This document shows, in pieces, positions 38,312 to 64,000 of a stretch of DNA of 64,000 bases. The number at the start of each line of letters is the position of its first letter. Positions within the stretch are counted from its first letter, which is position 1. The notes beneath the pieces were generated by a model. That model saw only the letters and a list, made by a program, of their open reading frames with translations, searched no databases and had not been told where the DNA came from. The position numbers and the translations under genes are program-made. Where the stretch lies: positions 678,001 through 742,000 of the forward strand of contig OX453284.1 in assembly GCA_949710005.1 (NCBI GenBank), written 5' to 3'. The stretch is from Ricordea florida (taxonomy: Eukaryota > Cnidaria > Anthozoa > Corallimorpharia > Ricordeidae).

Positions 38312-38460
38312 GGCGAAGGACTTACGCTCGAAACGTCAGCACCTCCCTTTTACCTTACGGTGGTATAACTTACTTTATCAATTCGTTTGATTATCCCAAT
38401 TTCTTGTGTTTCAATTCCCCACCGACGCAGCATCAGTTTCTTTAGAAACTATCCCCACAA
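38312..38460 (+). mobile_element. 150-bp mobile sequence, copy 1, seeding the minisatellite
   Basis: From CGAAGGACTTACGCTCGAAA to CTTTAGAAACTATCCCCACA this is about 90% identical to 54109-54258, where the same sequence is a clean insertion. The tail ATCCCCACAA at its 3' end is the first part of the 18-bp minisatellite unit that follows without a gap. Confidence 0.85.
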
Positions 38461-41400: not shown

Positions 41401-41795
41401 ATACCCACAATACTTGTTATCCCCACAAAACTTGTTATCCCCACAATACTTGTTATGCCCACAATACTTGTTATGCCCACAAAACTTGTTATCCCCACAA
41501 TACTTGTTATGCCCACAATACTTGTTATCCCCACAAAACTTGTTATCCCCACAATACTTGTTATCCCCACAATATTTGTTATCCCCACAACACTTGTTAT
41601 CCCCACAAAACTTGTTATCCCCACAATACTTGTTATGCCCACAATACTTGTTATCCCCACAAAACTTGTTATCCCCACAATACTTGTTATCCTCACAATA
41701 TTTGTTATCCCCACAACACTTGTTATCCCCACAATACTTGTTATCCCCACAATACTTGTTATCCCTACAATACTTGTTATTCCCACAATACTTGT
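38461..41795 (+). repeat. 3.3-kb minisatellite, about 185 copies of an 18-bp unit
   Basis: The unit is TTATNCCCACAANACTTG, with two freely varying positions: base 5 is C, A or G, and base 13 is T, A or C. The other bases are nearly fixed. Because 18 is a multiple of 3 and the unit has no stop codon in several frames, reading frames of 800-1160 codons exist on both strands; these are by-products. Units missing one C (17 bp) at about 38813 and 40882, and repeated strings of variant units, show higher-order duplication. The minus strand has GGGG or GGG every 18 nt. The array ends at ATACTTGTGATCCGAGC. Confidence 0.97.
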
Positions 41796-48801: not shown

Positions 48802-51378
48802 TTACACATAAGATACACTGTGATATTCACTGTCACTTCTTTTCTCTTTCATTGCACTGTCCACTTTAATTGATGGGAGCTTGTCTATTATCTCAGAGTC
48901 TCTCTCCTTACCTGTCAACTCATCTTCATTTAGCATCACATCCTCATTCTGACCAGCATTACTGATGCTCTTGTTGTCCCAGTACATGCTCTCCACCCAG
49001 TAGTAAATTTCCACTTTTCTGGTAACATAGATCAGAAGGTAAGCACTCATCAAAAGGGCAAAGGACGACAGCATATGCCAGATATCATGGTAGTCAAAGA
49101 AGTCCCAAAGGACACACTCTTGGTTCTTGGTGCGCGAGAAGCTTGGTGCAGCAACCTTGCGAGTTGTAGACTTTATCTTAAAGAAGTACATTGCAAAAAC
49201 CCAAAAGAGGAAGGTGGTGATCATGAACAGAACACGGTACCAGTTACTCCAGAAGATCAGACAGATATGTTTTGGGTTGCAAAGCTGTTTCAGTCCACCA
49301 CCAACACTACCACCAGAAGATTTGTGCTTGTTCAGAGACATAGCAGCATCAAAGCACAACAAGCCAAGAATGCTCAGAGTAACCGCAGCCACACAAGAAA
49401 ACAGGAAAAACTGAGACCAGTCACCAAACTGATTGAAGCCAATAATGATCAAACAAAAAGGAAAAATTACAATCCACACCCACTTCACAATGGCCTCCAC
49501 AAATGAAACATGGTTTCCATTTTCTCTGCAAATTTTCCATTTGCAGGGTACACCAACCTTTAAAAAGGCCCAGACATACATGACAATTAACCAGAAAACC
49601 AGAAAAATCCAATAAATTACTTCAAAGACTGTTGGAAGGCCTTGAGTATCCCTTACAGACCCAATATAGTTAAACACCAGCAATGGAGCCACAAAAAACA
49701 AGAAATATTTTGGTGCATGAACAGCAGTAGTACTTGGATGTTTGCTCTTGTCATCACCTCTCAATTCATCTTTGACTCTGCAGTTAAACAATGCAACTAC
49801 CACCAGCCCAGAAATTATGAACATGAATGCAGAGTCAAACTGGAAAGTTAGACGGGAGGGGCACAGATGGTACGTGGCTGAAAACAACCCCTCAAAAACT
49901 AAAGCCCAAGCAAGTGCATAGGCAACAGAGTAGTTATAAGGTGGAAAAGGTCTGGAACTAGAGCTCTGCAGACTGTATGAGTTGTGACGAGCTTCAAGTG
50001 CTATAGCCTCCCTGAATGAAAATGATAAAGCAAGGAATATGCCATGAATGACATAAGGCACATTACTAAGCATGAAATTGGACGGCATATCAGTAAGGGA
50101 AATTGGTCTGTAGCAAAGTTCATTGTAGTAGCAAAGATCCCGATTGCCACTTTCAATCATATTTGACCAACGAGCAATCACAAACTGAGCAGAGCCAACC
50201 ATAAAACTAATTGCAAGAACTGCTGTCAAGTAAGAGTATGTCTTGATACCTTTGCCAAACCAAGCAACCCCCACTTCAACCCACCGTTTGAAAGGGAAGC
50301 TCTTTTTCTCTATTGGTGGAGGCAGGTAATCAGCAACACTCTTACTTAGTGCCATTTCTGGTATTCCCATTTCTTTGTCCTCTCTCAAAAGAATGGGGGG
50401 TCTTATCCTATCAAAGTCAGAATTGAGGAAGAAATGGGCAAAAATGGCAACTGCAATGCCACCAAAAATTGCAATGATGCACATGTAAAGAGCAGGAAGA
50501 GCCTTTCCAATAGTGTCATACTTGTAAGCAAAGGTTATTGTCAGGTTAACAGCCTTCTGCATGGAAATCTCCTTGTCTATAAGATAACTACGGATCCCAA
50601 CATACCATCGTCCAGTTTTGATCTTAGGCTTTGAATACTGAGATAATGTTATTCTACCAGACTTGGTAAAAGTTAATTGAATTGTCTGATTTTCTTCTCC
50701 AGAGATTTTAATACCAAGTCCCTGGCTTTGGGCAGCAGAGCAGCTCTGGGACACCACAAGAAGACACTCCATGTCAGAGTCATAGGAGGTTGCAGAAATC
50801 TGAAGTAACTTGGACAACTGTTCTTCGTTTACATCAAATGCTTTTACTTCAGCCAAACCATCATAGCGAACAGAAACTGATTCTGGTTCACTTGGAATTA
50901 AGGCAGAATCATCCAATTCAACCTGCACTGTGAAAGACTCATTCTCAGGTACTCCAAAGAAAAGAAAATCAAGTTCTTTAGTCCCTGAATATGCCGGCAT
51001 TACAGTTTTGCTCTGGGGGCAGGCATGAAAGTGGTACCTTTGTATGTTACTGAGATCAGAGGAACGTGCAACACCCACAAACAGTACATTCAAGTTCTCA
51101 AGGACCATAGAATAAAGTGCACTTAAATTACTGGAGGTGCTGGATGCTCCCAAAGTCACACGCACTATGGCTGATTTTGTGCTATGCTTTACATTGCAGC
51201 TTCGTGCATCACTGAAGTGGGATGTTAAGGAACCATTTATCATGACAGTCTCATTGGTTGCATAATATGATTTGCCAAAATCACAACTGACTTGGAAAGC
51301 CTGCTCACTGACCACACATGTCATGGTTGCCACAGTAAGAAGCAGAATGGCCAGATGCAGCTGGTAGGAACAAAACAT
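48802..51378 (-). CDS. SIDT: SID1 transmembrane family protein (SIDT1/2-like), intronless
   Basis: Multi-pass membrane protein of the SID-1 family (double-stranded RNA/nucleic-acid or cholesterol transport; lysosomal or plasma membrane in animals). It is 858 aa, close to human SIDT1/2. Seen in order: signal peptide (LHLAILLLTVATMTCVVS); an extracellular beta-rich domain of about 290 residues with several N-glycosylation sites; a first membrane segment (ALYMCIIAIFGGIAVAIFAHF); a cytosolic loop; then about ten membrane segments. The conserved metal-site motifs are present: SATYHLCPSRLTFQFDSAF and the C-terminal HDIWHMLSS. The start is at the ATG at 51376-51378. A CATTGTTAG sequence directly before it looks like a splice acceptor, so a non-coding 5' exon is possible. 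The whole reading frame has no intron, unlike the many-exon vertebrate genes, which suggests retroposition or intron loss. Confidence 0.93.
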   Translation of the reverse strand: MFCSYQLHLAILLLTVATMTCVVSEQAFQVSCDFGKSYYATNETVMINGSLTSHFSDARSCNVKHSTKSAIVRVTLGASSTSSNLSALYSMVLENLNVLFVGVARSSDLSNIQRYHFHACPQSKTVMPAYSGTKELDFLFFGVPENESFTVQVELDDSALIPSEPESVSVRYDGLAEVKAFDVNEEQLSKLLQISATSYDSDMECLLVVSQSCSAAQSQGLGIKISGEENQTIQLTFTKSGRITLSQYSKPKIKTGRWYVGIRSYLIDKEISMQKAVNLTITFAYKYDTIGKALPALYMCIIAIFGGIAVAIFAHFFLNSDFDRIRPPILLREDKEMGIPEMALSKSVADYLPPPIEKKSFPFKRWVEVGVAWFGKGIKTYSYLTAVLAISFMVGSAQFVIARWSNMIESGNRDLCYYNELCYRPISLTDMPSNFMLSNVPYVIHGIFLALSFSFREAIALEARHNSYSLQSSSSRPFPPYNYSVAYALAWALVFEGLFSATYHLCPSRLTFQFDSAFMFIISGLVVVALFNCRVKDELRGDDKSKHPSTTAVHAPKYFLFFVAPLLVFNYIGSVRDTQGLPTVFEVIYWIFLVFWLIVMYVWAFLKVGVPCKWKICRENGNHVSFVEAIVKWVWIVIFPFCLIIIGFNQFGDWSQFFLFSCVAAVTLSILGLLCFDAAMSLNKHKSSGGSVGGGLKQLCNPKHICLIFWSNWYRVLFMITTFLFWVFAMYFFKIKSTTRKVAAPSFSRTKNQECVLWDFFDYHDIWHMLSSFALLMSAYLLIYVTRKVEIYYWVESMYWDNKSISNAGQNEDVMLNEDELTGKERDSEIIDKLPSIKVDSAMKEKRSDSEYHSVSYV

Positions 51379-52405: not shown

Positions 52406-53456
52406 GAATCAGTGGTCGGTTCCGGCAATTCTACTTTTTACAAAAAACGCGGATTACGAAAATGAAAAATGCCTTAAAATCAAGGTCTTTATTTGTATTT
52501 TACACTCGAAACAAAAAAAGGACACACTTTTTTTAACTTCGACTCGCCATTATGAAAACCTGAGAAAAGTCCCCCCTTTTCTCATAAAAAGCGGGACATT
52601 TTTAGGATTTGTCTTCGATATAAAGTGAACCAACTTTCTTGAGTAATATTCATATCTCACTAATCACAAAACAGCGAGAAAGGAAAATTTCTCGAGTTTT
52701 TTCAGCTTTTTGCCTTTTTATACAAAGACGAAAAAAGTCGACTTTTTTTATCTTTCTTTGTTTCGACTTTTCGGCCGGCAGCTGTCAAGGTGACAGCTGT
52801 CAAAATTTAGTTGACGCGCCTGCATTTAGTTTAGATCCCCTGGTTTAAATCGAGCATGAATATCATGGCCAGATTACTATTGTTTAAAGTTGAAGACTTA
52901 GGTTTGACCTCTTTCTCGTCCATCTTAATCTTGATGTAAACGTCCGACATCTTCAAGCATTGAACACAAAGTGTGCAACACTTGTAAATTAACGTCAGGA
53001 TTGCTCAGAGTTTCCCGCCATTTTTTGACAGCTGTCAGTCGAGAGGCCCGAAGATTGGGATTCCCGCCTTTTTTTGATAACTGTCCGCCAAAAAGTCGAA
53101 ACAAAGAAATATAAAAAAAGTCGACTTTTTTCGACTTTGTATAAAAAGGCAAAAAGCTGAAAAAACTCGAGAAATTTTCCTTTCTCGCTTTTTTGTGATT
53201 AGTGATATATATAAATGTTACTCAAGAAAGTTGGTTCACTTTATATCGAGGACAAATCCTAAAAATGTCCCGCTTTTTATGAGAAAAGGGGACACTTTTC
53301 TCAGGTTTTCATAATGGCGAGTCGAAGTTAAAAAGGGTGTCCTTTTTTTGTTTCGAGTGTAAAATACATATAAAGACCTTGATTTTAAGGCATTTTTCAT
53401 TTTCGTAATCCACGTTTTTTGTAAAAAGTAGAATTGCCGGAACCGACCACTGATTC
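52406..53456. mobile_element. 1.05-kb long inverted repeat (fold-back element)
   Basis: The left arm of about 385 bp (52406-52790, beginning GAATCAGTGGTCGGTTCCGG) is mirrored by the right arm (about 53075-53456, ending CCGGAACCGACCACTGATTC) at very high identity with a few indels. The 280-bp centre is single-copy, with TGACAGCTGTCA palindromes. The open frames in both arms are mirror images of each other and not genes. A transcript across it would form a hairpin of several hundred base pairs. Confidence 0.92.
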
Positions 53457-54108
53457 CCAAGGTAGAGGATTGGACAAATATATATTGTGTAGTAGTAGAG
53501 AAGGAGGGCCCGTACATCCGGGAAACCGAGTTCTCCCGTTGTTGTCAAAAACCCTCGTGGTCGATGGCAGAATAAAGACTGTTGTTCATCATTAAGTCCT
53601 CGGTGTTACTTGCGGCTTTTGCTCCGGCCAACATAACCACTCATTGATCCACTTCAACACCACGATCATGATAAGTCATTTAAAATTGATACACAGGTGA
53701 CAACAGCAGTAAGCGAAACACATGACCCAAATAGATACTCACGGATACCATATGGTTTAAAAGCAGAATCAACTCTCCATAGAATAACAATGAATCCATC
53801 CACTGCCAGTCCGGGGGAAACTTTGGAAAAGGATATTCCACAACTAAATGAGGATATGGAAATAGTAGCCCACAGTGTATTCCTGATATTTAACCTAACC
53901 GTCACAGGCTACGCGAATGAGTAATACTGTGGTTAATAATATCGGTCGAAATCTAGTGAACCGACTCAGGGTAAGTTTTGGCGGTGAACTACTCCAGGAT
54001 ATTCAAAGATATGACTTATTTATGACGTATAATGATCTTTTCTTAACCGCCCAGTAATATAACGTCATGATAGATTACGACAGGGAATATCCAACTAAAA
54101 TATCCGAC

Positions 54109-54258
54109 GAACGAAGGGCTAACGCTCGAAACGTCAGCACCTCCCATTCACCTTACGGTGGTATAACTTACCTAATCAACTCGTTTGATTTATCCAATTT
54201 GTTGCGTTTCAATTTCCCACCGACGCAGCACCAGTTTCTTTAGAAACTATCCCCACAA
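54109..54258 (+). mobile_element. 150-bp mobile sequence, copy 2, with 13-bp target-site duplication
   Basis: TAAAATATCCGAC occurs immediately before (54096-54108) and after (54259-54271) a 150-bp block that matches 38312-38460. The reading frame of the capsid relic resumes on the other side, so this is a clean insertion. The 3' end is AAACTATCCCCACAA. No reading frame or clear pol III boxes are seen, and how it moves is unknown. Confidence 0.88.
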
Positions 54259-54464
54259 TAAAATATCCGACAGCTGAGAGCCAACTCTGGCGATAAGGAC
54301 ACAACCAAACCTAAAGATCTTCTGGTGTCAGCCATTCATAATATAAAGTACTGCATTCCCCTTGATCATCCCATTCTCAATGATGGTGGAGTATTCTACC
54401 AAAGAGCATTGACTGATGCGTTGAATTTTGAGATTACATTAGCGTCATTAAATGATAAAGCGTA

Positions 54465-55206
54465 ATAGCGATCATAATCATAGGAAATGTTGTGTCGCTT
54501 ATGTCAGAGTGGGAATGCCTGAAAACATAATCATTAGGGGGCTTGTGAACGACATTATCATAATCATAAGAAAATGAAGGACCATTTTCTTATGATTATG
54601 ATTACGGATTATGTCCGTGCTTATGATTTATGTCGCTCTCGGTTGTAGTGGGAACGTGAAAACATAAGCGACATAATAATAATCATAACAATGAAAGCGG
54701 CCCATTGTGCTCCAGCCAATGAAAATCTAGTTCCAGTACGCTCAGCTGGTCCAACAGGTTCTCAGAGTTTTGTTCTTTGATTGGATATACGCGGAGCAAC
54801 CAGACTAAGTAAATGTTCAAATCGCAACGGAGACATTCTTATCGATTTAAAGTGCCACTCTTGATCTCCGAGCCGAAGTTCCTGAATACGAGTATGATGA
54901 CATTCTAATCTTTGCCGTTCTCTGAATGTCGGTCTTAGCCTAAAACGCCATTTGTATTCTCTCTTCTTCCTCGAGCGACATCGTCGCAAATCAAGAACAG
55001 AATCAGTATGCAGTGCAAGATGACGATCAATTGTCGTACGTATGTTTGCACGGCAGCCATTTTTGAAGCCTGGTACTCAAAATAAACAAGTGTAAAACTG
55101 CTGTATGACAAGACTTGAGGAACACGTTCCCACTAAATCATAAGAAGCTTACGTTTATGATTGCGATTATGATTATGATTATGATCGTTATGTCGCTAGT
55201 GGGGAC
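54465..55206 (-). mobile_element. Truncated PIF/Harbinger-type transposon in the capsid relic
   Basis: Both ends are built from AGCGACATAA- and ATCATAATCATAATC-type words in inverted orientation (left about 54465-54700, right about 55140-55206). The minus-strand frame at 54762-54989 reads QELRLGDQEWHFKSIRMSPL and FEHLLSLVAPRISNQ, which resembles the N-terminal part of Harbinger transposases (FRMxxxxFDELLxxVGPRI). No DDE core is present, so the copy is internally deleted and non-autonomous. It interrupts the relic between pieces 2 and 3. Confidence 0.72.
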
Positions 55207-55883
55207 CAAGCCCTACTACACATGATGATAAACAACCGAATTATCAATTAACTAATCTTGAATTAGAATACTGTTGTATAACTAGTGAATATCTATCTCG
55301 AGAGGCAAAAACTTCATATGCAGTTGGTAAATGATATTTCTATAAAAATGTTCCGTTTGAAACTTCCATTATTGATCAGAAGAAGAAGGGTATTATCTAT
55401 CGGTTAATATTCCCCGAGGGTCAGCGACTGGAATATTTAATGTATGTTTGTTGATGAAAGTTATAATGGGATGAGAAACTCTGAAAAGTTTTTGTATCCT
55501 GATATTACTTCAGTCATTATTGATATCGATGGAATCCCAAATCGATTACATTCCCAGGGTATGCTGCCAACCGATTTTTGTAACAGTATTAAACTGCGGT
55601 GGGATGTTGGTAATATGAGTGAGAGTTATTTTTATGAGGATAAATTTGCCTTATGGATTGATGTTAGGTCTCACTATGTCGCGGAATCTTCTACTGCGTT
55701 AAAGAAAATCTCCGTTCTCGCTGGTTCACCAACACTTAGGACTGTATCTATCGTTTCATTCACTTTATTGCTTCTCTAACACGTTCTACACTCGTTCTAC
55801 ACTCTCGCGGTTTCGATCTGAACTAGTGAAGTAGGGGGAAAGTGACAGTTCTAGGCCAGCACTTCAAGACCAAAAACACAAAA

Positions 55884-55905
55884 AATCCTGCACGCGTGCA
55901 GGATT
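55884..55905. promoter_or_regulatory. Perfect 22-bp palindrome upstream of the Cys/His-repeat gene
   Basis: AATCCTGCACG is followed at once by its reverse complement, with no loop, 54 bp before the ATG at 55960. It could be an operator-like site or part of a 3'-end hairpin of an upstream transcript. Confidence 0.6.
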
Positions 55906-55959
55906 CTAAAAATGATACCATATCATCTTAAAGGGATGACCTGTACATCCAAACTCATC

Positions 55960-56376
55960 ATGCCCAATCAACGTCAAACTGTCAAAGAGCTCCGCGCCAT
56001 TGCCAAGAATCGCAAGATAGCCAAATATTATAAGATGCGCCGGGGAGAGTTAGTGGAGGCGCTGGGGATGCCTGAAGAGGTACCTAGTGGTGGAAAATGT
56101 AACCATGGCAGGCGTAAGGTTCAGTGTAAGGATTGTATGGGATCACAAATATGCCCTCATCTAAGACAGAAAGCGTATTGCAAAGAATGTGGTGGTAAGG
56201 GTATATGTATTCATGATAGAGTAAAGTACTCTTGCAAAGATTGTGGTGGTTCCCAAGTATGTTCTCATGGTAGAACTAGGTACAGATGTAAAGATTGTGG
56301 GGGAAATGGCATATGCGTTCATTACAAACGTAAAGATCGTTGTATAGATTGCCGCGATCTTATGAAGTCACAGTAA
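55960..56376 (+). CDS. SAP-like plus Cys/His-repeat protein of the virus-like element
   Basis: 138 aa from the ATG at 55960 (an earlier in-frame ATG at 55912 would add 16 residues). Residues 1-40 (QRQTVKELRAIAKNRKIAKY, then YKMRRGELVEAL) look like a SAP/Rho-N-type helix-hairpin that binds nucleic acid. The rest is five tandem copies of a Cx(1-2)H-x(5-7)-Cx2C pattern: CNHGRRKVQCKDC, CPHLRQKAYCKEC, CIHDRVKYSCKDC, CSHGRTRYRCKDC, CVHYKRKDRCIDC. This suggests one zinc ion per repeat. Similar Cys/His repeats occur in giant-virus and algal/oomycete proteins (from memory). It is the only plus-strand intact gene of the block and converges on the minus-strand cluster, sharing a hairpin at 56387-56417. 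DNA or RNA binding is inferred. Confidence 0.75.
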   Translation: MPNQRQTVKELRAIAKNRKIAKYYKMRRGELVEALGMPEEVPSGGKCNHGRRKVQCKDCMGSQICPHLRQKAYCKECGGKGICIHDRVKYSCKDCGGSQVCSHGRTRYRCKDCGGNGICVHYKRKDRCIDCRDLMKSQ

Positions 56377-56386
56377 TATAGTGTGC

Positions 56387-56417
56387 ATTTTTGTAACGCG
56401 AACCACGTTACAAAAAT
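56387..56417. terminator. 12-bp stem hairpin between convergent viral genes
   Basis: The arm 56387-56398 (ATTTTTGTAACG) is the exact reverse complement of 56406-56417, loop 7 nt. It lies 10 nt after the plus-strand stop (56376) and 13 nt after the minus-strand stop (56431), so it could end both transcripts. Confidence 0.7.
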
Positions 56418-56430
56418 CATATCTAGTCCA

Positions 56431-57183
56431 TCAACGAAACAAAGCCCAAGCCAATCCAGCAACTACGATTATCAGTGTAAACATATTATTTTCATGTTGT
56501 GTGGTTTCAGGCTCTTTGATTTCAGGTTTAACATCCGTTATTGGTGTTTTCACCTGTACAGTTTCAGTTCTGGTAGCTGCATGTGGTAACTTAACTTTCG
56601 AAGAGCCCAAGTTATGGCTTATTCCTACAGTCTTGGTCTCGAGGTTTACATTTGAGTTGACTCCGAACTTCATGTCACCCGTGGCCTTCATTAGGTTGTT
56701 GTTGTAACCAACTATACTCTCCGTGTTTATGATCATATTACTGGGCATTAGCCAAACTCCAGGTGCAATTGCCAGATCCAATCTTAACTTCGCTTCCTGA
56801 GTTGCGAGTTGGTACCTTTGTACTGAACTTGATATGTCGTTCTCAATCACACTGCTTTCAAATAGAGCCAAAAACTCTTGCTGTGTTTCAATTGCCCCAC
56901 CACCCGTGCCCACAATCGAGTTTCGTGTATTGACTTGCGATCCCAGCACACAGTAAACGAAGGCCTCAGCAGATCGATTCAGTCTACCCAGCCCAGCCTT
57001 GGTGAGCCCATAACCACTCGTTGGGATGAACCAAGCATATTTGTACCCAGCAAAGTCATCATTGCGAATGAATGAGATGAGGTTACCTTTTTCCTTCTTA
57101 CCACCATCATCTGAGAATTTGCCACCATCACCAGGCCATTGATTTGCATCTTCATCATAGTTTCGAATCAAATGAACATTTTG
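56431..57183 (-). CDS. Conserved virus-like protein, C-terminal part (after a frame break)
   Basis: The frame runs from the break around 57183-57190 to the TGA at 56431; there is no ATG of its own (the first usable codon, near 57171, is TTG). Readable blocks: NQWPGDGGKFSDDGGKKEKG, NLISFIRNDDFAGYKYAWFI, GLTKAGLGRLNRSAEAFVYC, TGGGAIETQQEFLALFESSV, a run of Thr/Lys/Pro/Glu, and a C-terminal membrane anchor (NNMFTLIIVVAGLAWALFR). From memory, similar sequences in cnidarian genomes follow directly on the N-terminal half encoded next door, in one chain. The overlap with the upstream frame at a run of five G on the coding strand argues for a one-base slip. A virion or membrane-linked role is possible but unproven. 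Confidence 0.7.
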   Translation of the reverse strand, partial: QNVHLIRNYDEDANQWPGDGGKFSDDGGKKEKGNLISFIRNDDFAGYKYAWFIPTSGYGLTKAGLGRLNRSAEAFVYCVLGSQVNTRNSIVGTGGGAIETQQEFLALFESSVIENDISSSVQRYQLATQEAKLRLDLAIAPGVWLMPSNMIINTESIVGYNNNLMKATGDMKFGVNSNVNLETKTVGISHNLGSSKVKLPHAATRTETVQVKTPITDVKPEIKEPETTQHENNMFTLIIVVAGLAWALFR

Positions 57184-57953
57184 AAATCCCCCACCTCGTC
57201 CATGAAAACCAGCCCCATAGTCTCATGGTTTCGCCCGCCTTTCCATCTGAAATCAGAACCATTAGCGATCCCGAATTCAGCGCATAATCTTTGGTATGCA
57301 ACTTTACTGTAAGGGTTGTTAGCTATGGCAAATGGTTGTTCATCTGGCAGAGGTACATTCAATTCGTACAGTATTCGCCTTATGGTGAAATACACATGAA
57401 ACTTTATGAAGCCAGCCACCACTTTGGGGTAGTTCAAACTTTCAAATGGGCTGACACCACAGCCAGAGGTCGCACACCACACTGCAAAGTTTAGTTGTTG
57501 AGGCCAGTAGTTCATGTCGGGGGAGTTTAGCCATTTTCGACTTTGTTTACCAAACTTGAAAGTCACAACTTGGGAGGTAAATATGTTACGCATCTTAGCG
57601 GTGAATTTTTTCGTGTTGGACACGTATATGTCCAATGACGTCAGCATGTTTGTGGTGTTACTTGTGGGTTCGTCAAAATCAATGGCTGGAATTGGGTAGG
57701 AGCGATTTGTCATGGTCAGGCTCTTTGGGAAGGGGCTTGATGTATCATCCAGTCCCAAATCAATCCATAGTAGTTGTTTGAGACCTGGTCGGATGTCATC
57801 AGTCCATGTCTTGCCAGTGGGATCATCATAAGACATGATTGTTAATCCATTACGTGTCCATACCATATAACCACCATAATTATCATTCACAAATTTGAAT
57901 TGGTTCAAATCAGCCTTAGGATACCTATTTCTGAAGTCGTTTAGTAAGCCCAT
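57168..57953 (-). CDS. Conserved virus-like protein, N-terminal part
   Basis: 261 codons from the ATG at 57951-57953. Blocks seen: FVNDNYGGYMVWTRNGLTIM, DIRPGLKQLLWIDLGLDDTS, SLTMTNRSYPIPAIDF, NMLTSLDIYVSNTKKF, LNFAVWCATSGCGVSPFESL, FHVYFTIRRILYELNVPLP, VAYQRLCAEFGIANGSDFRW, then NHETMGLVFMDEVGD before the frame ends at 57168. I recall this set as a repeated, unnamed protein family of cnidarian virus-like elements that normally continues through the neighbouring frame (about 500 aa in all). It has no membrane segment and a mixed alpha/beta composition with aromatic-rich strands. A structural (virion) role is a guess. Stop and next frame overlap at the break. A hairpin abuts its start codon. 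Confidence 0.75.
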   Translation of the reverse strand: MGLLNDFRNRYPKADLNQFKFVNDNYGGYMVWTRNGLTIMSYDDPTGKTWTDDIRPGLKQLLWIDLGLDDTSSPFPKSLTMTNRSYPIPAIDFDEPTSNTTNMLTSLDIYVSNTKKFTAKMRNIFTSQVVTFKFGKQSRKWLNSPDMNYWPQQLNFAVWCATSGCGVSPFESLNYPKVVAGFIKFHVYFTIRRILYELNVPLPDEQPFAIANNPYSKVAYQRLCAEFGIANGSDFRWKGGRNHETMGLVFMDEVGDFKMFI

Positions 57954-57979
57954 CTTCTATCCAGACTTTGGGTAGAAGA
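57953..57979 (-). terminator. Hairpin after the 99-aa viral gene
   Basis: A ten-base-pair stem (TCTTCTATCC with GGGTAGAAGA, one G-T pair), loop 7 nt, 18 nt after the stop at 57998 and touching the next start codon. Confidence 0.65.
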
Positions 57980-57997
57980 GTTCATGATTTTAAGTCA

Positions 57998-58297
57998 TTA
58001 TGTGAGAAAATATATAGCACTAGCCAAACCAAGGGTCCAATGTATTGCGGAACATACAACAACTACATACAATCCTTTGTTTGATTCTATAATCTTTTCT
58101 TCATAAATAGCACTGATTTCGTTCCTAGTGGTTTCATTTCTATTGTCCATAAACTTGTTTTTGAGTATTTGTAGTCCATCATTAATCAAATCTTTGAGAG
58201 CAATTTCGAAGTATTTGAATTCCTTTGTTTTATCCAAATTTATACCAGCACGTTCTAGGGACTTGAATTTCTCTTCAATAGATTGAATATTAGCCAT
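57998..58297 (-). CDS. Small tail-anchored helical protein
   Basis: 99 aa from the ATG at 58295-58297. The first 75 residues are charged and helical (EEKFKSLERAGINLDKTKEF, YFEIALKDLINDGLQILKNK), ending in one hydrophobic segment at the C-terminus (GLYVVVVCSAIHWTLGLAS). I do not recognise a named family. Its place in the compact block and its tail anchor suggest a virion-membrane or host-membrane protein. It is followed by a hairpin. Confidence 0.65.
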   Translation of the reverse strand: MANIQSIEEKFKSLERAGINLDKTKEFKYFEIALKDLINDGLQILKNKFMDNRNETTRNEISAIYEEKIIESNKGLYVVVVCSAIHWTLGLASAIYFLT

Positions 58298-58366
58298 GGT
58301 TATGTTACTAGTATATCAACCTTTAAGTATATTTGTATTAGTAGATGTTTTGCTCATAAACTATAG

Positions 58367-58966
58367 TTATAGTCCTCCTTTTAGTTCTTTGAGGATTTCT
58401 TGTCGTACTCTCTGCCTCAATACCAATGGGTCCTCCCCATCCATATTTTTTTCAGCTTTAGACCGTATCTCAGCCTTTAGTTTTTCAAACTTCTTGAGCT
58501 CTTCTATGATAAGCGAGAATTGTTCATCAGAGATCTTATTGTCACTAAGGGCTTTGGAAACCAGGTCTTCAATGGTGTTTATTTTGGATTTGGCCAGTGT
58601 GATGGTGTTTTGATGCTTCACAGCTTTCTTGGACAGGTTCTTTGATATGTGTTGGCATGCTATAGATGCACAGACAAACACACCACTCACTACACCCAAT
58701 GGCACAGCTGCGACAATTCCGACTCCACTAAGAGATGTGCCCAATCCACCAGCCGCCAAAATACAAGATAGGATACCACAGGTCGAGCTTGCGTTTATGA
58801 GCGCGCCTTTTGACCGGTTGTACTTTTTTAGTACCATCTCGTAATGCTTCAATTCAGCCTTCAGCTTATTCAAAATGTCACAACATTGTTGTAATCTGAA
58901 AGTAGCGCCATCAGGGGGAGGCGCCGTCGGAGGCAAGTTGGGATAGATTCCTTTGTACTCACCCAT
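58367..58966 (-). CDS. Helical protein with central Gly-rich membrane hairpin
   Basis: 199 aa from the ATG at 58964-58966. The N-terminus is proline-rich (YPNLPPTAPPPDG), then comes a helix with a coiled-coil look (CDILNKLKAELKHYEMVLKK), a long Gly/Ala-rich hydrophobic stretch at about residues 58-105 (SCILAAGGLGTSLSGVGIVA, AVPLGVVSGVFVCASIA), and a charged C-terminal helix bundle (SKINTIEDLVSKALSDNKIS, DEQFSLIIEELKKFEKLKAE). I recall very similar C-terminal sequences as repetitive, unnamed proteins in cnidarian virus-like elements. The amphipathic helices around a membrane hairpin would fit a membrane-active virion protein; this is inference. Confidence 0.7.
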   Translation of the reverse strand: MGEYKGIYPNLPPTAPPPDGATFRLQQCCDILNKLKAELKHYEMVLKKYNRSKGALINASSTCGILSCILAAGGLGTSLSGVGIVAAVPLGVVSGVFVCASIACQHISKNLSKKAVKHQNTITLAKSKINTIEDLVSKALSDNKISDEQFSLIIEELKKFEKLKAEIRSKAEKNMDGEDPLVLRQRVRQEILKELKGGL

Positions 58967-58999
58967 GTTTGGTTACGGATCTCGCGTACTTTTAAAATG

Positions 59000-59632
59000 T
59001 TATCTGAATCGCAAACTGAAGGTGATGGGAGACCCATTCAGATTTAATTTGTTCCATTCAATGTCGAGGATGCTCAGATCGAAGTGATTTACGGGGGTTT
59101 TGGATTTGTGAACGGGAATGACTGGATAATCCTGTGATGGTATGTTGGCAAGGAGTTGTGAGGGTGAGATCTTCACAGGGCCTGTAAATCGAGCATTGTT
59201 CATATAGGATGACTGGTTATTCACTAGACTGCACATAAGTCTCAGGGGCTCCTTGATTTGGAGATTTATAGGGTATAACTTACCAGGAGTTATGACTTCA
59301 GGTAAACCTAGAGCAACTTGCAATCCTCTCGTAAGTTTGATGTCGGAGTTCTTGTTGGAGTTCAAATAGTCAACAGTATCGGTCTCAATGATCGATAGCT
59401 TGGCCTTATCCGTATCATTGAGAAATATCGCGTGTATACCACGCAGAGAGTATGTACCGGGCTGGATTATTATGAGGGGTCGATCTTCCTCATTGAGTAC
59501 ACTCTGGCGATCCTTGAAATTCACCAGTCGTTTGGGTATATTACAACCCAGAAGTTGTATCTCTCGAACCTTGTCCAGGGGAGGGTCCAAGTACACCCTG
59601 GTTTCAGACTCGTACATTGTTATGCTCAACAT
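59000..59632 (-). CDS. Penton / minor-capsid-like protein
   Basis: 210 aa from the ATG at 59630-59632, almost entirely beta-type sequence: MLSITMYESETRVYLDPPLD, VREIQLLGCNIPKRLVNF, IIQPGTYSLRGIHAIFLND, LQVALGLPEVITPGKLYPI, LRLMCSLVNNQSSYMN, and a C-terminal strand pair NLNGSPITFSLRF. The pattern 'VYLDxPLxxVxxIQLLxC ... ITPGxYxL ... FDLSILDxxxNxLNxNGxPITFxLxF' matches what I recall of the minor capsid (penton-like) proteins of Polinton-like elements in cnidarians. A single jelly-roll virion vertex protein is the best guess. It sits five bases from the preceding gene, in the middle of the block, as expected for a late structural operon. Confidence 0.62.
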   Translation of the reverse strand: MLSITMYESETRVYLDPPLDKVREIQLLGCNIPKRLVNFKDRQSVLNEEDRPLIIIQPGTYSLRGIHAIFLNDTDKAKLSIIETDTVDYLNSNKNSDIKLTRGLQVALGLPEVITPGKLYPINLQIKEPLRLMCSLVNNQSSYMNNARFTGPVKISPSQLLANIPSQDYPVIPVHKSKTPVNHFDLSILDIEWNKLNLNGSPITFSLRFR

Positions 59633-59637
59633 TTACA

Positions 59638-60606
59638 TTAACGACGCCTCTTCTTTAATTCGTCCACAAAGTACACTACAACAGCGAGGATCAACAGCCA
59701 AGCGTTCTTACCCAGGAATGAAATGACCTCCCCAGCGGTCTTGAAAAGGAAACTCACGATCGCCCCCACCATACCAGGCAATAACTCACCAAGTTTCTTA
59801 CCGATGGTCTTCAGCCCGTCCCCCACACCTTTTCCCAACTTGGATAGGCCCTTGGAAAGATTAGACACGATAACGCCAATGACCACACCAACGGCGCTCA
59901 CAATGGCAAATACCGTGAAACCATATTTCTTGAAGATCGCTTTCACTCTATCTCGCAATGACATTCGCTCCTGGATTTGCTCATTCTCCCCTTCCAAGTT
60001 AGCTATCTCTTCCTCTTGTTCAACAATTTGTTCCTCGATGGTCTCTATTTGACTTACTTCTTCCGGGGTTTTCAATGCCTTTTCTCGATGGAATCTTACC
60101 TTCTCCTTCAATTTACTAACGAACCCTTTTCTCTTGGTTATCTCACCATTATTGGCTTCCACAATTTCTTCCGCGCTTGGACCTAACTCTTTTGTAATTG
60201 TTTTGGGTAATCCTTTGTTCACATCACCATTCGCATCGAATAATGGATGCCATACATTTCTGTCTGGATCTCTGCCAGTGATTTTGACAACGATTTTACC
60301 CCATTCATTGTATTTGAAAAGGAACTTGGGTTTGGCATTTGGGAATTTATCTACAATCTTGGTCCAGACTTCATCTTTGTTTTCTTCCATAACCTCCATC
60401 TCTATATCTTCACGTGGTAATTGAAGATACCCTAATTTACGTTTAGCACCCTTGGTCGTGGATGTTTCCAAGACTTTGTCTGGTGTTGGAGGCTGCCTAC
60501 CAAGTAGCGGGGTATCTTCGAAATCATCGGGATCTTCTTGTTTGTTTTCTTCCCCCAACCCGAAAGGATCGTTTTCTTCTTCTCCTTCAGGATAAGCAGT
60601 TGCCAT
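59638..60606 (-). CDS. Acidic/coiled-coil membrane protein
   Basis: 322 aa from the ATG at 60604-60606. It has an acidic N-terminus (EGEEENDPFGLGEENKQEDP), a middle globular part (DEVWTKIVDKFPNAKPKFLF, NEWGKIVVKITGRDPD), a coiled coil at about residues 180-225 (SQIETIEEQIVEQEEEIANL), then hydrophobic segments YGFTVFAIVSAVGVVIGVIV (about 235) and GMVGAIVSFLFKTAGEVISF / NAWLLILAVVVYFV near the end, with Gly/Lys-rich linkers and a KKRRR tail. From memory this architecture is common in cnidarian virus-like elements. The name is unknown; a role in virion membrane or entry is only a possibility. Confidence 0.68.
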   Translation of the reverse strand: MATAYPEGEEENDPFGLGEENKQEDPDDFEDTPLLGRQPPTPDKVLETSTTKGAKRKLGYLQLPREDIEMEVMEENKDEVWTKIVDKFPNAKPKFLFKYNEWGKIVVKITGRDPDRNVWHPLFDANGDVNKGLPKTITKELGPSAEEIVEANNGEITKRKGFVSKLKEKVRFHREKALKTPEEVSQIETIEEQIVEQEEEIANLEGENEQIQERMSLRDRVKAIFKKYGFTVFAIVSAVGVVIGVIVSNLSKGLSKLGKGVGDGLKTIGKKLGELLPGMVGAIVSFLFKTAGEVISFLGKNAWLLILAVVVYFVDELKKRRR

Positions 60607-60640
60607 ATTTGATGTCGAATATGGGAACTTCTAAGTTAGT

Positions 60641-61048
60641 TTATCGCACCCACTTGCTAATTATAAATACCAGGATTAACATCGCAATAACGACATAGAC
60701 CGTCTGAGCCATTCTTTGGTCTTCATTCGGTCTGTAATAGTCAGAGAACTTGGGAGGATCGCCTATTTGATTGTACAATCTCATCGCTTCATCCGTCTCC
60801 GATATGTTCTCAGATGCCTGGTCAGCATCACTCTTCCTCTTATTCATAAAGTCAATATATGCCAAGCGCCTCTGTTCATGCGCAGCGTAATCTTTTTGGT
60901 ACTCCTCCATTGCTTTGTCATGCCTTTTCCTTTCCTTTTCGAGTTCTTCGGGTGATGATCCAGTGAGGACATGTGTTATATAAGTACCAAAACCGAGGGC
61001 AGCTGCATTGGCGATTGCACCTCCGATAACGATCGCTATAGTCGCCAT
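60641..61048 (-). CDS. Two-helix membrane protein, virus-like element
   Basis: 135 aa from the ATG at 61046-61048. The N-terminal membrane helix (ATIAIVIGGAIANAAALGFG) is followed by a charged helical domain (ELEKERKRHDKAMEEYQKDY, RRLAYIDFMNKRKSDADQ), the motif PPKFSDYYRPNEDQR, and a C-terminal membrane helix (TVYVVIAMLILVFIISKW). Proteins with the same layout (short membrane helix, KERKRHDxAxE, LxDFYxPxExQ, membrane helix) are, as I recall, repetitive in cnidarian genomes. It lies 3 bases after the 73-aa gene and 34 bp before the coiled-coil gene. Confidence 0.7.
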   Translation of the reverse strand: MATIAIVIGGAIANAAALGFGTYITHVLTGSSPEELEKERKRHDKAMEEYQKDYAAHEQRRLAYIDFMNKRKSDADQASENISETDEAMRLYNQIGDPPKFSDYYRPNEDQRMAQTVYVVIAMLILVFIISKWVR

Positions 61049-61051
61049 TTG

Positions 61052-61273
61052 TCAATCTATTGTAGGATTCCTTAATTCAATGTTGAAAAAGTACTCCAAC
61101 TTGGGACCGTCCTTCAAATGATCGAGTACAGCCATACTGAATCCTTTCTCGTCAAAGGATATTACGGACCCATCGCCATCTTTGGTTATGAAGTCACTCA
61201 AAATGGGTCCATCTCTCATATGACTATCCAACGCAAGTTTGAATCTTTTGGGATCAAGTTTCACCGTGGCCAT
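61052..61273 (-). CDS. Small soluble 73-aa protein
   Basis: Starts at the ATG at 61271-61273 (MATVKLDPKRFKLALDSHMR). The longer frame to 61354 overlaps the upstream gene and was not used. It contains two similar halves: FKLALDSHMRDGPILSDF and FSMAVLDHLKDGPKLEYFF, each of the form F-x-x-A-(x)-D-x-(H/M)-(L/M)-(K/R)-DGP-x-L-x-x-F, an internal duplication. The family is not known. The gene sits 2 bases after one gene and 3 bases before the next. Confidence 0.65.
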   Translation of the reverse strand: MATVKLDPKRFKLALDSHMRDGPILSDFITKDGDGSVISFDEKGFSMAVLDHLKDGPKLEYFFNIELRNPTID

Positions 61274-61275
61274 TA

Positions 61276-61497
61276 CTAAAAGCTCTTTGGTAGTATCTTT
61301 TGATCTTCTAAATAGGTTTTGAGGTACATACTTCCTGACAAAACACCCACCCATTTGACAAAATTCATGATATTTGACGATGGATCACCAATGAGCGATT
61401 TTTTCAGGACCTCTTTACCCACATAGCCCACAAGAGCTGAGAGCCCCACGAGAACTGTAGAGTCTGTAACAGTCTTTACAAGCTTGTTGTCTGACAT
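61276..61497 (-). CDS. Small membrane protein, two hydrophobic helices
   Basis: 73 aa from the ATG at 61495-61497 (MSDNKLVKTVTDS), chosen over the GTG four codons upstream. Hydrophobic segments are TVLVGLSALVGYVGKEVL and IMNFVKWVGVLSGSMYLKTY. The family is not recognised. The spacing of 2 and 8 bases to its neighbours marks it as part of one transcription unit. Confidence 0.62.
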   Translation of the reverse strand: MSDNKLVKTVTDSTVLVGLSALVGYVGKEVLKKSLIGDPSSNIMNFVKWVGVLSGSMYLKTYLEDQKILPKSF

Positions 61498-61505
61498 TTT
61501 ATGTA

Positions 61506-61952
61506 TCACATCAACTCATCATTTAAGCTGTTTTCTCTGTTTGAGGCTCTCTTGACCTCATCCATGTTCTTGACAGGAGGTGGTTCGAAGGTTTTAGAAG
61601 TTACACCTAAGTCAGCTATTCTGTCTTTGTATCTCGTGTATAATGAATAAGCAATCCCTATTATGGACCCGAATATTAACAAATTATCAAAGGATAGACC
61701 GGGTATCCAGGCATCATCATCCTCTTTCACCAATGCATCTTGCTGCTGTTGCTGTTGCTGTTACTCCTTTTCTTTCTGACTATCTATCAATGCATCCCGT
61801 TGCTCTTTTTCCTTCAATGCCTCCTTAGCCTTCTTGTGGTAGTCGGCCAGTTTCTTCCCGGCCTCCACCTTCTTGGGATCCTTTACTCTATCCTTGACAT
61901 CGGGTTCTCTTGTGATTTGCTCAACAGGTTGCTCAGACATGTTTGTATCCAT
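61506..61952 (-). pseudogene. Membrane protein gene with an in-frame stop before a polyQ run
   Basis: One reading frame from the ATG at 61950-61952 (MDTNMSEQPVEQ) to the TGA at 61506, interrupted by a TAA at 61761-61763. The upstream part (63 codons) is a Lys/Glu-rich helix (KKVEAGKKLADYHKKAKEAL). The part after the stop begins with about eight Gln codons (CAG/CAA), then KEDDDAWIPGLSFDNLLIFG, a membrane helix (LLIFGSIIGIAYSLYTRY) and a charged tail ending RENSLNDELM. The frame is unbroken apart from that codon, so this is either a very recent nonsense mutation or a read-through stop. The neighbours are intact. Function unknown. Confidence 0.6.
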
Positions 61953-61971
61953 GTTATAATTTGGCTTTAAC

Positions 61972-61998
61972 TCTCCTAATAGGATGCCTATTGGGAGA
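61972..61998 (-). terminator. Hairpin after the 74-aa gene
   Basis: Twelve-base-pair stem (TCTCCTAATAGG with CCTATTGGGAGA, one G-T pair), 3-nt loop, 16 nt past the stop at 62015. Shares CTTTAACTCTCCTAATAGG with the hairpin at 62271. Confidence 0.7.
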
Positions 61999-62014
61999 TT
62001 TTTTGAACCAACAC

Positions 62015-62239
62015 CTACCAGAAGCAATGACGTTTGCTATACAACCAACATAATCCAATTCCGACTATCAAACCTTTGAACCATAATAATGCTCTCTCAC
62101 CTAACTCATCATTCTTTATTCTTTCCTCATCTTTACAATCTTGTATTATTTCCCGACATTGTTCATCTATATTTTCTCTACAATACTCTTCACAATATTC
62201 TTTCACAGTCGCTCTATAAACAACTTCTGTGTCAGCCAT
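62015..62239 (-). CDS. Small Cys-rich tail-anchored protein
   Basis: 74 aa from the ATG at 62237-62239 to TAG at 62015. The soluble part has an EYCEEYCRENIDEQCREIIQ repeat-like Cys/Glu helix. The C-terminus is a membrane segment (WFKGLIVGIGLCWLYS) followed by KRHCFW. Cysteines about 4-9 residues apart suggest disulfides or metal binding. The family is not recognised. It is bounded on both sides by related hairpins, so it is probably its own transcription unit. Confidence 0.62.
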   Translation of the reverse strand: MADTEVVYRATVKEYCEEYCRENIDEQCREIIQDCKDEERIKNDELGERALLWFKGLIVGIGLCWLYSKRHCFW

Positions 62240-62270
62240 GTTTGTATCCCCATTATCACTTAGCTTTAAC

Positions 62271-62298
62271 TCTCCTAATAGGTTTGTCTATTAGGAGA
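62271..62298 (-). terminator. Hairpin after the 328-aa gene
   Basis: Eleven-base-pair perfect stem (TCTCCTAATAG with CTATTAGGAGA), loop GTTTGT, 12-13 nt past the stop at 62311. Confidence 0.75.
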
Positions 62299-62310
62299 AG
62301 TAAGTCTTAA

Positions 62311-63297
62311 TTAACAATGTTCTATCACATACTCATCTTCATCTTCTGATTCTTGTGGCTCAGCATCATTGGGAGGTAACATACGAGATTCCGATTCTTG
62401 CGGTGTAGCATTATTGGAGGGTAACATGCTAGATTCTGTTTCTTGTGTTGTAGCATTATTGGAAGGTAACATTCGAAAACTAGTCATGCTGTTGAAATCA
62501 CTTGGAGTGAAATTCATCTCAGTAACACGAAGACGGGCTGAGGCACCGTAACCGGTCTGCCCGTGGGATCCCCAGAATATACCATCCCAATGGACAACAG
62601 GATGACTAAAACCGCTTACATACTTGTCGGGTTGCCACATGTATTCAAGTGGGTTAACCATTTCATCATCTGGGCCGTATACACAAGTTCTGGATAGGAT
62701 GTTACAACCCTTACCCCAGGTTATGAATTTGAGGTAGGCACGCTGTGGGCTGCTTTTGTCCTTTGTCTTCTCACCCGTTTGTTGGTCTGTGATGTTTGTG
62801 TAATCGTATATCGGTTTCACAGCAAAAGACCAATCATTTTCACTCTTGGCAGTCGTGTATGCATTGAAAGTTGCGGGTGGAACTGACCTCTCTGATTTTG
62901 GTTTGTTACAAAACTTTTTGAGTGAGTTCAATGTGATCTTCACTACATTATCAAGTGCTTTTCGAGTCTTGATCTCTTCGGTTGTTGGGCAATCCATGGT
63001 ATGAATCGATGTCACTGGGTATGAAATTTGGAACCCCTCCAACGTCTCAAGTCTGCGACTGTCTTTGTCGGTTCCAAATGGCCACACCCCCGATATACCC
63101 GAAAAGAATTGCTTGGATAATTCAATGAAGATCGGTCGCTTCACACCATTGGGACCTTGTACGTAAACATCTGAAGTAACCCATTGGTTTTGTACATTAC
63201 TTCTGCCTTTGTTGAAGGATTTACTCTTGGGTTCAGAAACAACAATGGTGTTCCAGTCAAAATCAGAGTCAAGTGAAATGAAGATTGGTTCAGCCAT
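62311..63297 (-). CDS. Putative NCLDV-type single-strand DNA-binding protein
   Basis: 328 aa from the ATG at 63295-63297 (MAEPIFISLDSDFDWNT). The core has RPIFIELSKQFFSGISGVWP, QISYPVTSIHTM, then AYLKFITWGKGCNILSRTCV, NPLEYM, VHWDGIFWGSHGQ and a final strand SARLRVTEMNF. The layout 'lysine/tyrosine-rich strand, G-x-E/D-x-x-x-P-L/V, hydrophobic I/V-x-I/W-x-x-I-F/W, final V-x-E' resembles the small DNA-binding proteins of giant DNA viruses (DUF5871-like); this is pattern recall, not a search result. The C-terminus carries three near-identical 15-residue repeats (MLPSNNATTQETESS, MLPSNNATPQESESR, MLPPNDAEPQESEDE) and an acidic tail. Acidic tails are typical of viral ssDNA-binding proteins. The likely role is coating viral DNA during replication. 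Confidence 0.5.
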   Translation of the reverse strand: MAEPIFISLDSDFDWNTIVVSEPKSKSFNKGRSNVQNQWVTSDVYVQGPNGVKRPIFIELSKQFFSGISGVWPFGTDKDSRRLETLEGFQISYPVTSIHTMDCPTTEEIKTRKALDNVVKITLNSLKKFCNKPKSERSVPPATFNAYTTAKSENDWSFAVKPIYDYTNITDQQTGEKTKDKSSPQRAYLKFITWGKGCNILSRTCVYGPDDEMVNPLEYMWQPDKYVSGFSHPVVHWDGIFWGSHGQTGYGASARLRVTEMNFTPSDFNSMTSFRMLPSNNATTQETESSMLPSNNATPQESESRMLPPNDAEPQESEDEDEYVIEHC

Positions 63298-63345
63298 GTT
63301 CAACACTTTACCTTTCGGTTATGACATAGTACATACCTATCTTTA

Positions 63346-63376
63346 AGCCACTTAGTATGTCACCTACTAAGTGGCT
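63346..63376 (-). terminator. Second intergenic hairpin, 12-bp perfect stem
   Basis: AGCCACTTAGTA (63346-63357) pairs exactly with TACTAAGTGGCT (63365-63376), loop 7 nt. It is similar in sequence to the hairpin at 63429, so they look like a duplicated pair. It lies about 50 bp before the next start codon. Confidence 0.65.
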
Positions 63377-63428
63377 CACAAGTGGTTATTTTAGTACTAA
63401 AGTTGTGTTGGGGCTTTGCTGCTTAGGT

Positions 63429-63453
63429 CTCTTAGTAGGTCATCTACTAAGAG
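63429..63453 (-). terminator. Hairpin after the gene at the right edge
   Basis: CTCTTAGTAG (63429-63438) pairs exactly with CTACTAAGAG (63444-63453), loop 5 nt, 15 nt past the stop at 63469. Confidence 0.7.
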
Positions 63454-63468
63454 GCTCAAAATCGGTTC

Positions 63469-63999
63469 TTACATATTCCATCGTTCTTTCATGTCTTTCA
63501 ATTCCTCGTGGTCAATACACCAGTCTAGCACTCGATCGGGATGCCATGCTGCAGCCACTAATTCATCAAAAACACTTTTGAATTCTACTTTATGGTATTG
63601 CTTGTTAAAGCTCAACATTGCTGCAGGGATTAGTTTATCGAGAACACGTTTGAATTCTAGTCTATGGTATTCCTTGTCATAGTTCAACATTTTGATTCTA
63701 ATGTATGAAAGTTTAGAATCCATTCCATTTGCAACATGATTAACCATAGGTCTAATCAGACTAGGGTTTTCTAAGACATCCTCTAGATCCCAATCCCAAT
63801 CCCAATCCTGATCTTCATCATCATCAATATATTCATCATCATTATAGGGTCCAAATATGTCACAGTCATCATTTCTATCAAGACACACTTGGAGTCCATC
63901 CATCAAAGCATTCCTAATCCTAGATCTCAAAACTCTCACAATACGATTGATTGTATCATCCATAGAATCAACATCATCATCGTAATGGTCTACTATCAT
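63469..63999 (-). CDS. Acidic protein with giant-virus-like WHPDRVxDWC motif
   Basis: 176 aa if the ATG at 63997-63999 is the start; the frame is open at the window edge, so it may be longer. It is strongly acidic in the middle (YNDDEYIDDDEDQDWDWDWD). The C-terminal half has a duplicated block: EYHRLEFKRVLDKLIPAAML and QYHKVEFKSVFDELVAAAWH, then HPDRVLDWCIDHEELKDMKE. Proteins with A-W-H-P-x-R-x-x-x-W-C-x-D-x-E ends are, as I recall, common and functionally unassigned in mimiviruses and phycodnaviruses. This supports a viral origin for the block. Function unknown. Confidence 0.6.
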   Translation of the reverse strand: MIVDHYDDDVDSMDDTINRIVRVLRSRIRNALMDGLQVCLDRNDDCDIFGPYNDDEYIDDDEDQDWDWDWDLEDVLENPSLIRPMVNHVANGMDSKLSYIRIKMLNYDKEYHRLEFKRVLDKLIPAAMLSFNKQYHKVEFKSVFDELVAAAWHPDRVLDWCIDHEELKDMKERWNM

Positions 64000-64000
64000 C

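Follow-up and report, generated by a model that had tools for sequence, protein, structure and literature searches.

A Polinton that carries a TFIIB-like gene and lacks a recognisable adenovirus-type protease, repeated across the genome of the corallimorpharian Ricordea florida

What kind of element accounts for a compact, virus-like gene block in the genome of a corallimorpharian? The question is raised by the right-hand end of a 64,000-nucleotide stretch of Ricordea florida DNA (positions 678,001 to 742,000 of contig OX453284.1, assembly GCA_949710005.1; written here as C13:678001-742000 and called the window), which belongs to an assembly of 537,793,885 bases in 48 contigs. An original prediction, made from the letters of the window, described about a dozen genes lying mostly on one strand and proposed a Polinton-like or giant-virus-related element. 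The block itself is readily confirmed: the window contains 14 tightly packed minus-strand open reading frames (ORFs) at 56431-63999 and one plus-strand ORF at 55912-56376, with neighbouring frames overlapping by a few bases or lying 3-71 bp apart, except for a single gap of about 165 bp (63306-63469). Pfam and PHROGs scans covering ten proteins of this block returned nothing useful except Rho_N in the plus-strand Cys/His-repeat protein, so that the type of element could not be decided from the window alone. On the evidence of its right flank and of its copies elsewhere in the genome, the block is very probably the left half of an integrated Polinton (Maverick), from a lineage that carries a TFIIB-like gene and has no recognisable adenovirus-type protease.

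The boundaries of the element were defined by pairwise comparison of the window and its right flank (L009-L011) with the surroundings of three other copies, designated C7, C6 and C5. Likeness to these copies stops at window position ~55830 on the left and at L009 ~8556 on the right, where L009 is the flank piece right of the window (L009:224 is 64224 in window numbering, and L009 ~8556 is C13:750556). The Polinton therefore spans 55830-72556 in window numbering, with its right end at C13:750556 and a total length of 16,727 bp, of which 8,171 bp (55830-64000) form the left half inside the window. Members of the Polinton/Maverick family have terminal inverted repeats and a short target duplication, usually of 6 bp; the duplication of the R. 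florida element differs from the usual one in being 5 bp long. The inverted repeats of the window copy extend over 260 bp with 4 mismatches and 1 gap (98.1% identity), both ends start with AGTAGGGGG, and the corresponding repeats measure 251 bp in C7 (99.2% identity), 290 bp in C6 (88.3%) and 262 bp in C5 (99.2%). Target duplications were examined in 14 copies, in eight of which both ends were recognised. Six of these eight (window, C7, C5, C14, C2a and C3) have the 5-bp duplication; the C6a copy lies inside a TTA microsatellite, which makes its duplication ambiguous, and the C16 copy has none. In the remaining six copies, one or both ends fell outside the fetched stretch or were not recognised. 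Terminal inverted repeats with a 5-6 bp duplication, which had been proposed as a check on the element's nature, are thus present.

A 601-bp probe (window 60000-60600) found at least 40 matches in the assembly at 96-100% DNA identity, distributed over 15 of the 48 contigs; the count is a lower bound, as 40 matches were scored among 895 candidates. With at least 40 copies on 15 contigs, neither a contaminant join nor a single integration can explain the block, and both readings were rejected in view of the many insertions with different flanks and ends of their own. The notion of an assembly contaminant joined by error, evidence for which the original prediction had named as a ground for refutation, has nothing found in its favour, is scarcely credible and is refuted by scored copies whose flanks differ from contig to contig and whose duplications are specific to those flanks.

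The original prediction had found no polymerase, integrase, packaging ATPase or protease and had suggested that the rest of the element might lie beyond 64 kb. It does: a PolB-family polymerase, an rve integrase and a packaging ATPase were found there, together with the inverted repeats and the 5-bp duplication, and of the four genes to be sought rightward only the adenovirus-like protease was not recognised. The polymerase is 92% identical over 795 aa to the genome's best PF03175 place (C1, E 4.9e-29), and exonuclease and polymerase family-B motifs follow one another in order. The integrase matches rve at E 1.5e-7 (32.0 bits, just below the cut-off of 32.6) and an IS481 transposase model at E 9.1e-13. 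The capsid protein reaches 25.2 bits with PF16903 Capsid_N (cut-off 24). The ATPase of the C7 copy contains a P-loop and matches PF04665 at E 1.4e-12; the C-terminal fragment present in the window copy matches it at E 3.4e-7. Solved structures, searched by sequence, offered no convincing match to the capsid protein, the polymerase or the ATPase. Judged from these profile and motif matches, the element encodes a family-B polymerase of the organellar/viral type, an rve integrase and an A32/FtsK-HerA packaging ATPase, as well as a putative double jelly-roll major capsid protein. We assign it to the Polintons/Mavericks because polymerase, integrase, capsid protein and ATPase occur together with inverted repeats and 5-bp duplications, in agreement with the Polinton-like kind first proposed. 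The alternative suggestion of an unusual element type finds no support at that level: the element is ordinary in kind, and what sets it apart is its gene content, in two respects, and its recent high number of copies.

A second, related Polinton lies in the opposite orientation at C13 about 753823-768244 (L010, L011). Its polymerase is 56% identical to that of the element, its 314-bp inverted repeats are 100% identical to each other, and its ATPase frame contains a stop. This neighbouring relative matches 15 of 21 element proteins at 40-75% identity, has an integrase above the rve cut-off (E 1.7e-9, 38.3 bits), and by protein comparison lacks the TFIIB-like gene. Of the same 21 window-element proteins, 20 are matched in C7, 21 in C6 and 20 in C5. 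By their likeness the copies are recent, given the 96-100% DNA identity among the 40 scored and the full identity of the relative's 314-bp repeats. Directly left of the element, five plus-strand frames at window 53637-55776 match parts of the element's capsid protein at 48-67% identity and represent a decayed older relative.

Ratios of nonsynonymous to synonymous substitution rates (dN/dS) were calculated pairwise between copies, with two to four copies per gene; against the relative, synonymous divergence was saturated or nearly so. The ratios are 0.06-0.10 for the integrase (three copies), 0.08-0.22 for the ATPase (four copies), 0.20-0.30 for the capsid protein (three copies), 0.20 for the polymerase (one pair) and 0.11-0.22 for the gene at 56431-57953. 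The WHPDRVxDWC protein gave 0.30-2.47, and the candidate penton 0.40-0.85 when the C7 copy is included but 0.09-0.17 when it is left out. As dN/dS is well below 1 in several genes, purifying selection has acted between insertions on many of the element's genes. The ORFs are therefore not chance frames, being matched in other copies and in the relative and showing such low ratios in several cases.

Between the polymerase and the integrase sits a gene whose product resembles TFIIB. In the C5 copy this protein matches two TFIIB structures, which we take to be archaeal, at E 3e-4, and others, presumably human, at E 0.26. Against the NCBIfam TFIIB model, the C5 protein scores E 3.7e-4 and the window-copy protein E 0.0036; the latter also matches, at E 1.9e-7, a PHROG without assigned function. 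Near its N-terminus the protein has a CxH...CxxC ribbon, which we assume to be as in TFIIB. That the gene instead encodes an unrelated protein made of a zinc ribbon and helices, and not a transcription factor, would agree with TFIIB matches that are weak and uneven across copies; we consider it unlikely, because the C5 copy is collinear with TFIIB both in structures and in NCBIfam and because of the N-terminal ribbon. Genome-wide, the TFIIB-like gene has at least 140 matches (scored of 294 candidates) that are 82-100% identical, and 134 of the 140 are without a stop. Had the copies reached this mean identity (~89%) by random substitution, about 11-15% of them would be expected to be stop-free, a comparison that is rough in that the search favours good copies.

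Among the papers listed by literature searches that did not extend to subscription papers, no description of TFIIB in Polintons was seen: in PMC12638062, PMC6563490 and PMC6746690, the TFIIB passages deal with markers of giant viruses, with giant viruses and with integrated elements of archaea. The first of these, in its available text, presents TFIIB as a near-universal giant-virus marker, which, together with the match of the capsid protein to the Capsid_N family typical of nucleocytoplasmic large DNA viruses (NCLDV), is what a fragment of a larger virus, giant or other, integrated once, might be expected to show. Such an origin is highly improbable for a defined 16.7 kb unit that has inverted repeats, target duplications and an integrase of its own and is repeated genome-wide, and the ends of the element refute it.

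The integrated Polinton is also distinguished by what it lacks. No Pfam peptidase was listed for the element proteins scanned, which did not include the ORFs at 61052, 61276 and 62015 (74-100 aa). As a control, a genome-wide search with PF00770 gave 26 places that reach E 0.001 or better, of which 25 are stop-free. Their spacing was measured to 59 PF03175 polymerase places among the matches listed: 16 of the 26 lie 10.15-10.43 kb from such a polymerase, and 10 have none of the 59 so near. We read this fixed protease-polymerase spacing as the likely signature of another, protease-bearing Polinton family. All 26 lie farther than 20 kb from every TFIIB-like place among the 140, and the closest is 42 kb away. 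Because PF00770 matches elsewhere in the genome and never within 20 kb of these places, the lack of a protease appears to be a property of the TFIIB-bearing lineage at the sensitivity of the PF00770 model, an Ulp1-type model not having been sought genome-wide. Two Polinton lineages appear to coexist in the genome.

A divergent protease might alternatively be hidden in an unknown protein, such as the product of the 56431-57953 gene or the WHPDRVxDWC protein, and capsid maturation kept. Among 49 aligned members of the 56431-57953 family, W, Q, H and D residues are invariant and cysteines near-invariant, and the protein at 59638-60606 has a weak match (E 0.0097) to a PHROG named head maturation protease, which stands among tape-measure families of the same coiled-coil kind. 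We nevertheless regard a hidden protease as doubtful, since the scanned proteins yielded no Pfam peptidase while PF00770 detects 26 places elsewhere.

Several observations weigh against a TFIIB-bearing Polinton lineage as described. The window copy has the 56431-57953 gene in two pieces, the 61506-62027 gene split and the ATPase frame without its N-terminal part, so that the earlier description of the block as mostly intact is generous for this copy. In C7 the capsid and integrase genes are each in two pieces, and in C5 the polymerase frame is interrupted; undivided natural forms of single genes exist among the copies. Neither the window copy's polymerase nor that of the relative has PF03175 among its hmmscan listings, and the relative's capsid protein (23.7 bits with Capsid_N, cut-off 24) and ATPase fragment (22.4 bits with Pox_A32, cut-off 22.8) fall just short. 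The candidate penton at 59000-59632 has no Pfam match and no PDB relative by profile, and the penton label is unconfirmed. The TFIIB matches, weak but collinear, are absent in PDB for the window copy and in NCBIfam for the C7 copy; a three-sequence profile reached only E 0.6, Pfam lists no TFIIB model for any of the three scanned copies, and the gene's dN/dS between copies is only 0.52-0.80. Only one TFIIB-like place among the 140 lies within 5 kb of any of the 59 listed PF03175 places. Finally, the element is known here from its DNA sequence.

The outermost genes of the element share a segment. The first ~59 residues of the Cys/His-repeat protein (55912-56376) are encoded within the inverted repeat and are 95% identical to the N-terminal region of the polymerase over residues 1-59; the two proteins have near-identical Rho_N-type N-termini because the inverted repeat contains both gene starts. 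Rho_N scores 22.2 bits, below cut-off, at the polymerase N-terminus. In the relative, the left-end protein has a Rho_N domain, and a similar segment is visible by eye at the start of the polymerase, where Pfam lists none. As a guess, the shared Rho_N-type segment may bind DNA ends.

Adintoviruses are animal-tropic and linear and have a Polinton-type polymerase and integrase. With the Polintons/Mavericks (Polintoviricetes), including P-3_NV of Nematostella vectensis and one of Hydra, both named in PMC4028283, the R. florida element has in common the polymerase, rve integrase, packaging ATPase, major capsid protein and a size of 15-20 kb. It differs from them in having no recognisable adenovirus-type protease, in adding a TFIIB-like gene, and in the N-terminal domain that its terminal genes share via the inverted repeat. 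According to that paper, among 72 Polintons the ATPase is identifiable in 83% and the protease in 74%; the protease is thus common, not universal. PMC11071308 describes terminal-protein and OTU-like protease domains in the polymerases of Polintons. The accessible section of PMC10120064 places cnidarian capsid genes, alone among metazoan ones, outside the main Maverick-Polinton cluster. That group resembles the present element in its cnidarian host and Polinton-kind capsid protein, and the two possibly belong to the same lineage, the section in question treating the capsid network alone. Scans of viral contigs (IMG/VR) with one single protein and four alignments found no relative, and the lineage is therefore not seen in IMG/VR at that sensitivity.

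As a Polinton, the element would have a linear genome copied from its ends by a presumably protein-primed polymerase. The ATPase would package this DNA into a capsid of major capsid protein and penton, and the integrase would insert it. The TFIIB-like protein would probably bring the host's RNA polymerase II to promoters belonging to the element, a role proposed because no RNA polymerase gene was seen among the element frames. The small hydrophobic proteins would probably serve as virion membrane or entry proteins. A broader proposal, which we advance tentatively and as falling a little short of an even chance, is that of an anthozoan Polinton lineage in which the protease was replaced or lost, whose own TFIIB steers host RNA polymerase II, which coexists with protease-bearing Polintons and has recently spread, and which would explain the apartness of the cnidarian capsid genes. 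A lineage bearing a TFIIB-like gene, in which neither an RNA polymerase nor a maturation protease is seen, would inform the assembly of Polinton-type and giant-virus gene sets, and its recent copies make the activity of the element directly testable.

Table 1. Features of the Ricordea florida element, in window numbering or in positions of the right flank piece L009
Feature	Position	Strand	Basis or remark
Left target-site duplication copy, 5 bp AGTGA	55825..55829		right copy just past the element at C13:750557
Left half of the Polinton	55830..64000		similarity to C7, C6 and C5 copies stops at ~55830 and at L009 ~8556
Left terminal inverted repeat, 260 bp	55830..56089		98.1% identical to right repeat
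Cys/His-repeat protein with Rho_N-type N-terminus	55912..56376	+	Pfam Rho_N, E 6.1e-7
One gene in two ORFs (56431-57171 and 57168-57953), broken in window copy	56431..57953	-	comparison with copies
Small protein, C-terminal hydrophobic stretch (by eye)	57998..58297	-	
199-aa protein, hydrophobic stretch (by eye)	58367..58966	-	dN/dS 0.12-0.22
210-aa conserved protein, candidate penton	59000..59632	-	58 homologues
322-aa protein, C-terminal hydrophobic segments (by eye)	59638..60606	-	weak coiled-coil-type matches only
135-aa protein, N- and C-terminal hydrophobic segments (by eye)	60641..61048	-	dN/dS 0.27-0.93
Small protein	61052..61354	-	other copies back mainly residues 27-100 of the ORF
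Small membrane-type protein (by eye)	61276..61509	-	
Gene split into ORFs 61761-62027 and 61506-61733	61506..62027	-	one frame in three other copies
Small protein	62015..62239	-	68% alike in C6 copy
328-aa candidate single-stranded-DNA-binding protein	62311..63297	-	dN/dS 0.18-0.37
WHPDRVxDWC-motif protein, C-terminal part, cut by window end	63469..64000	-	frame runs on to 64224 (L009:224)
203-aa protein	L009:242-853	-	
A32-type ATPase fragment	L009:846-1406	-	PF04665 Pox_A32
Capsid protein, 411 aa	L009:1498-2733	-	PF16903 Capsid_N
Integrase	L009:2759-3748	+	Pfam rve
TFIIB-like, 277-aa frame	L009:3722-4555	-	weak NCBIfam match
Polymerase, 1316-aa frame	L009:4594-8544	-	92% identical to PF03175 frame

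Some of the left-half genes can be characterised further by comparison. In C6, C5 and the relative, the 56431-57953 gene forms one uninterrupted frame, which measures 514-550 codons from stop to stop, and in C7 it is in two pieces; its product has a hydrophobic C-terminal tail by eye, and sequence searches gave no convincing Pfam or PDB match. With 57171-57953 as query, 216 proteins were found at E 0.001 or better among 474 candidates, and the matches listed include a protein of the coral Oculina patagonica at 36% identity. The small protein at 62015-62239 has no counterpart in the C7 and C5 copies. For the protein at 62311-63297, 10 homologues were found and the Pfam and NCBIfam scans gave no family match, so the single-stranded-DNA-binding label is unconfirmed. 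The WHPDRVxDWC protein frame measures 268 codons, stop to stop, in C7, and a second protein with a motif like WHPDRVxDWC is present between left-end genes in the C7 copy and the relative.

Other loci were noted in passing. Four closely similar PF03175 polymerase frames lie within 29 kb at C8:21370732-21399303, and one of them (L025) has no blastp match to the element's polymerase at E 1e-3. Right of the element, the plus-strand frame L009:8834-9898, with many tandem copies of a short protein repeat, presumably resembles a Harbinger transposase. Within the window, a long array of 18-bp tandem repeats at 38387-41940 has a strong GC skew and is open in several frames, and an uninterrupted 858-aa membrane-protein frame on the minus strand at 48802-51378 resembles what we take to be SID-1. 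Inverted repeat arms of 127-141 nt, 92-98% complementary, surround 52.4-53.5 kb (52406-53456) and probably mark another mobile element.

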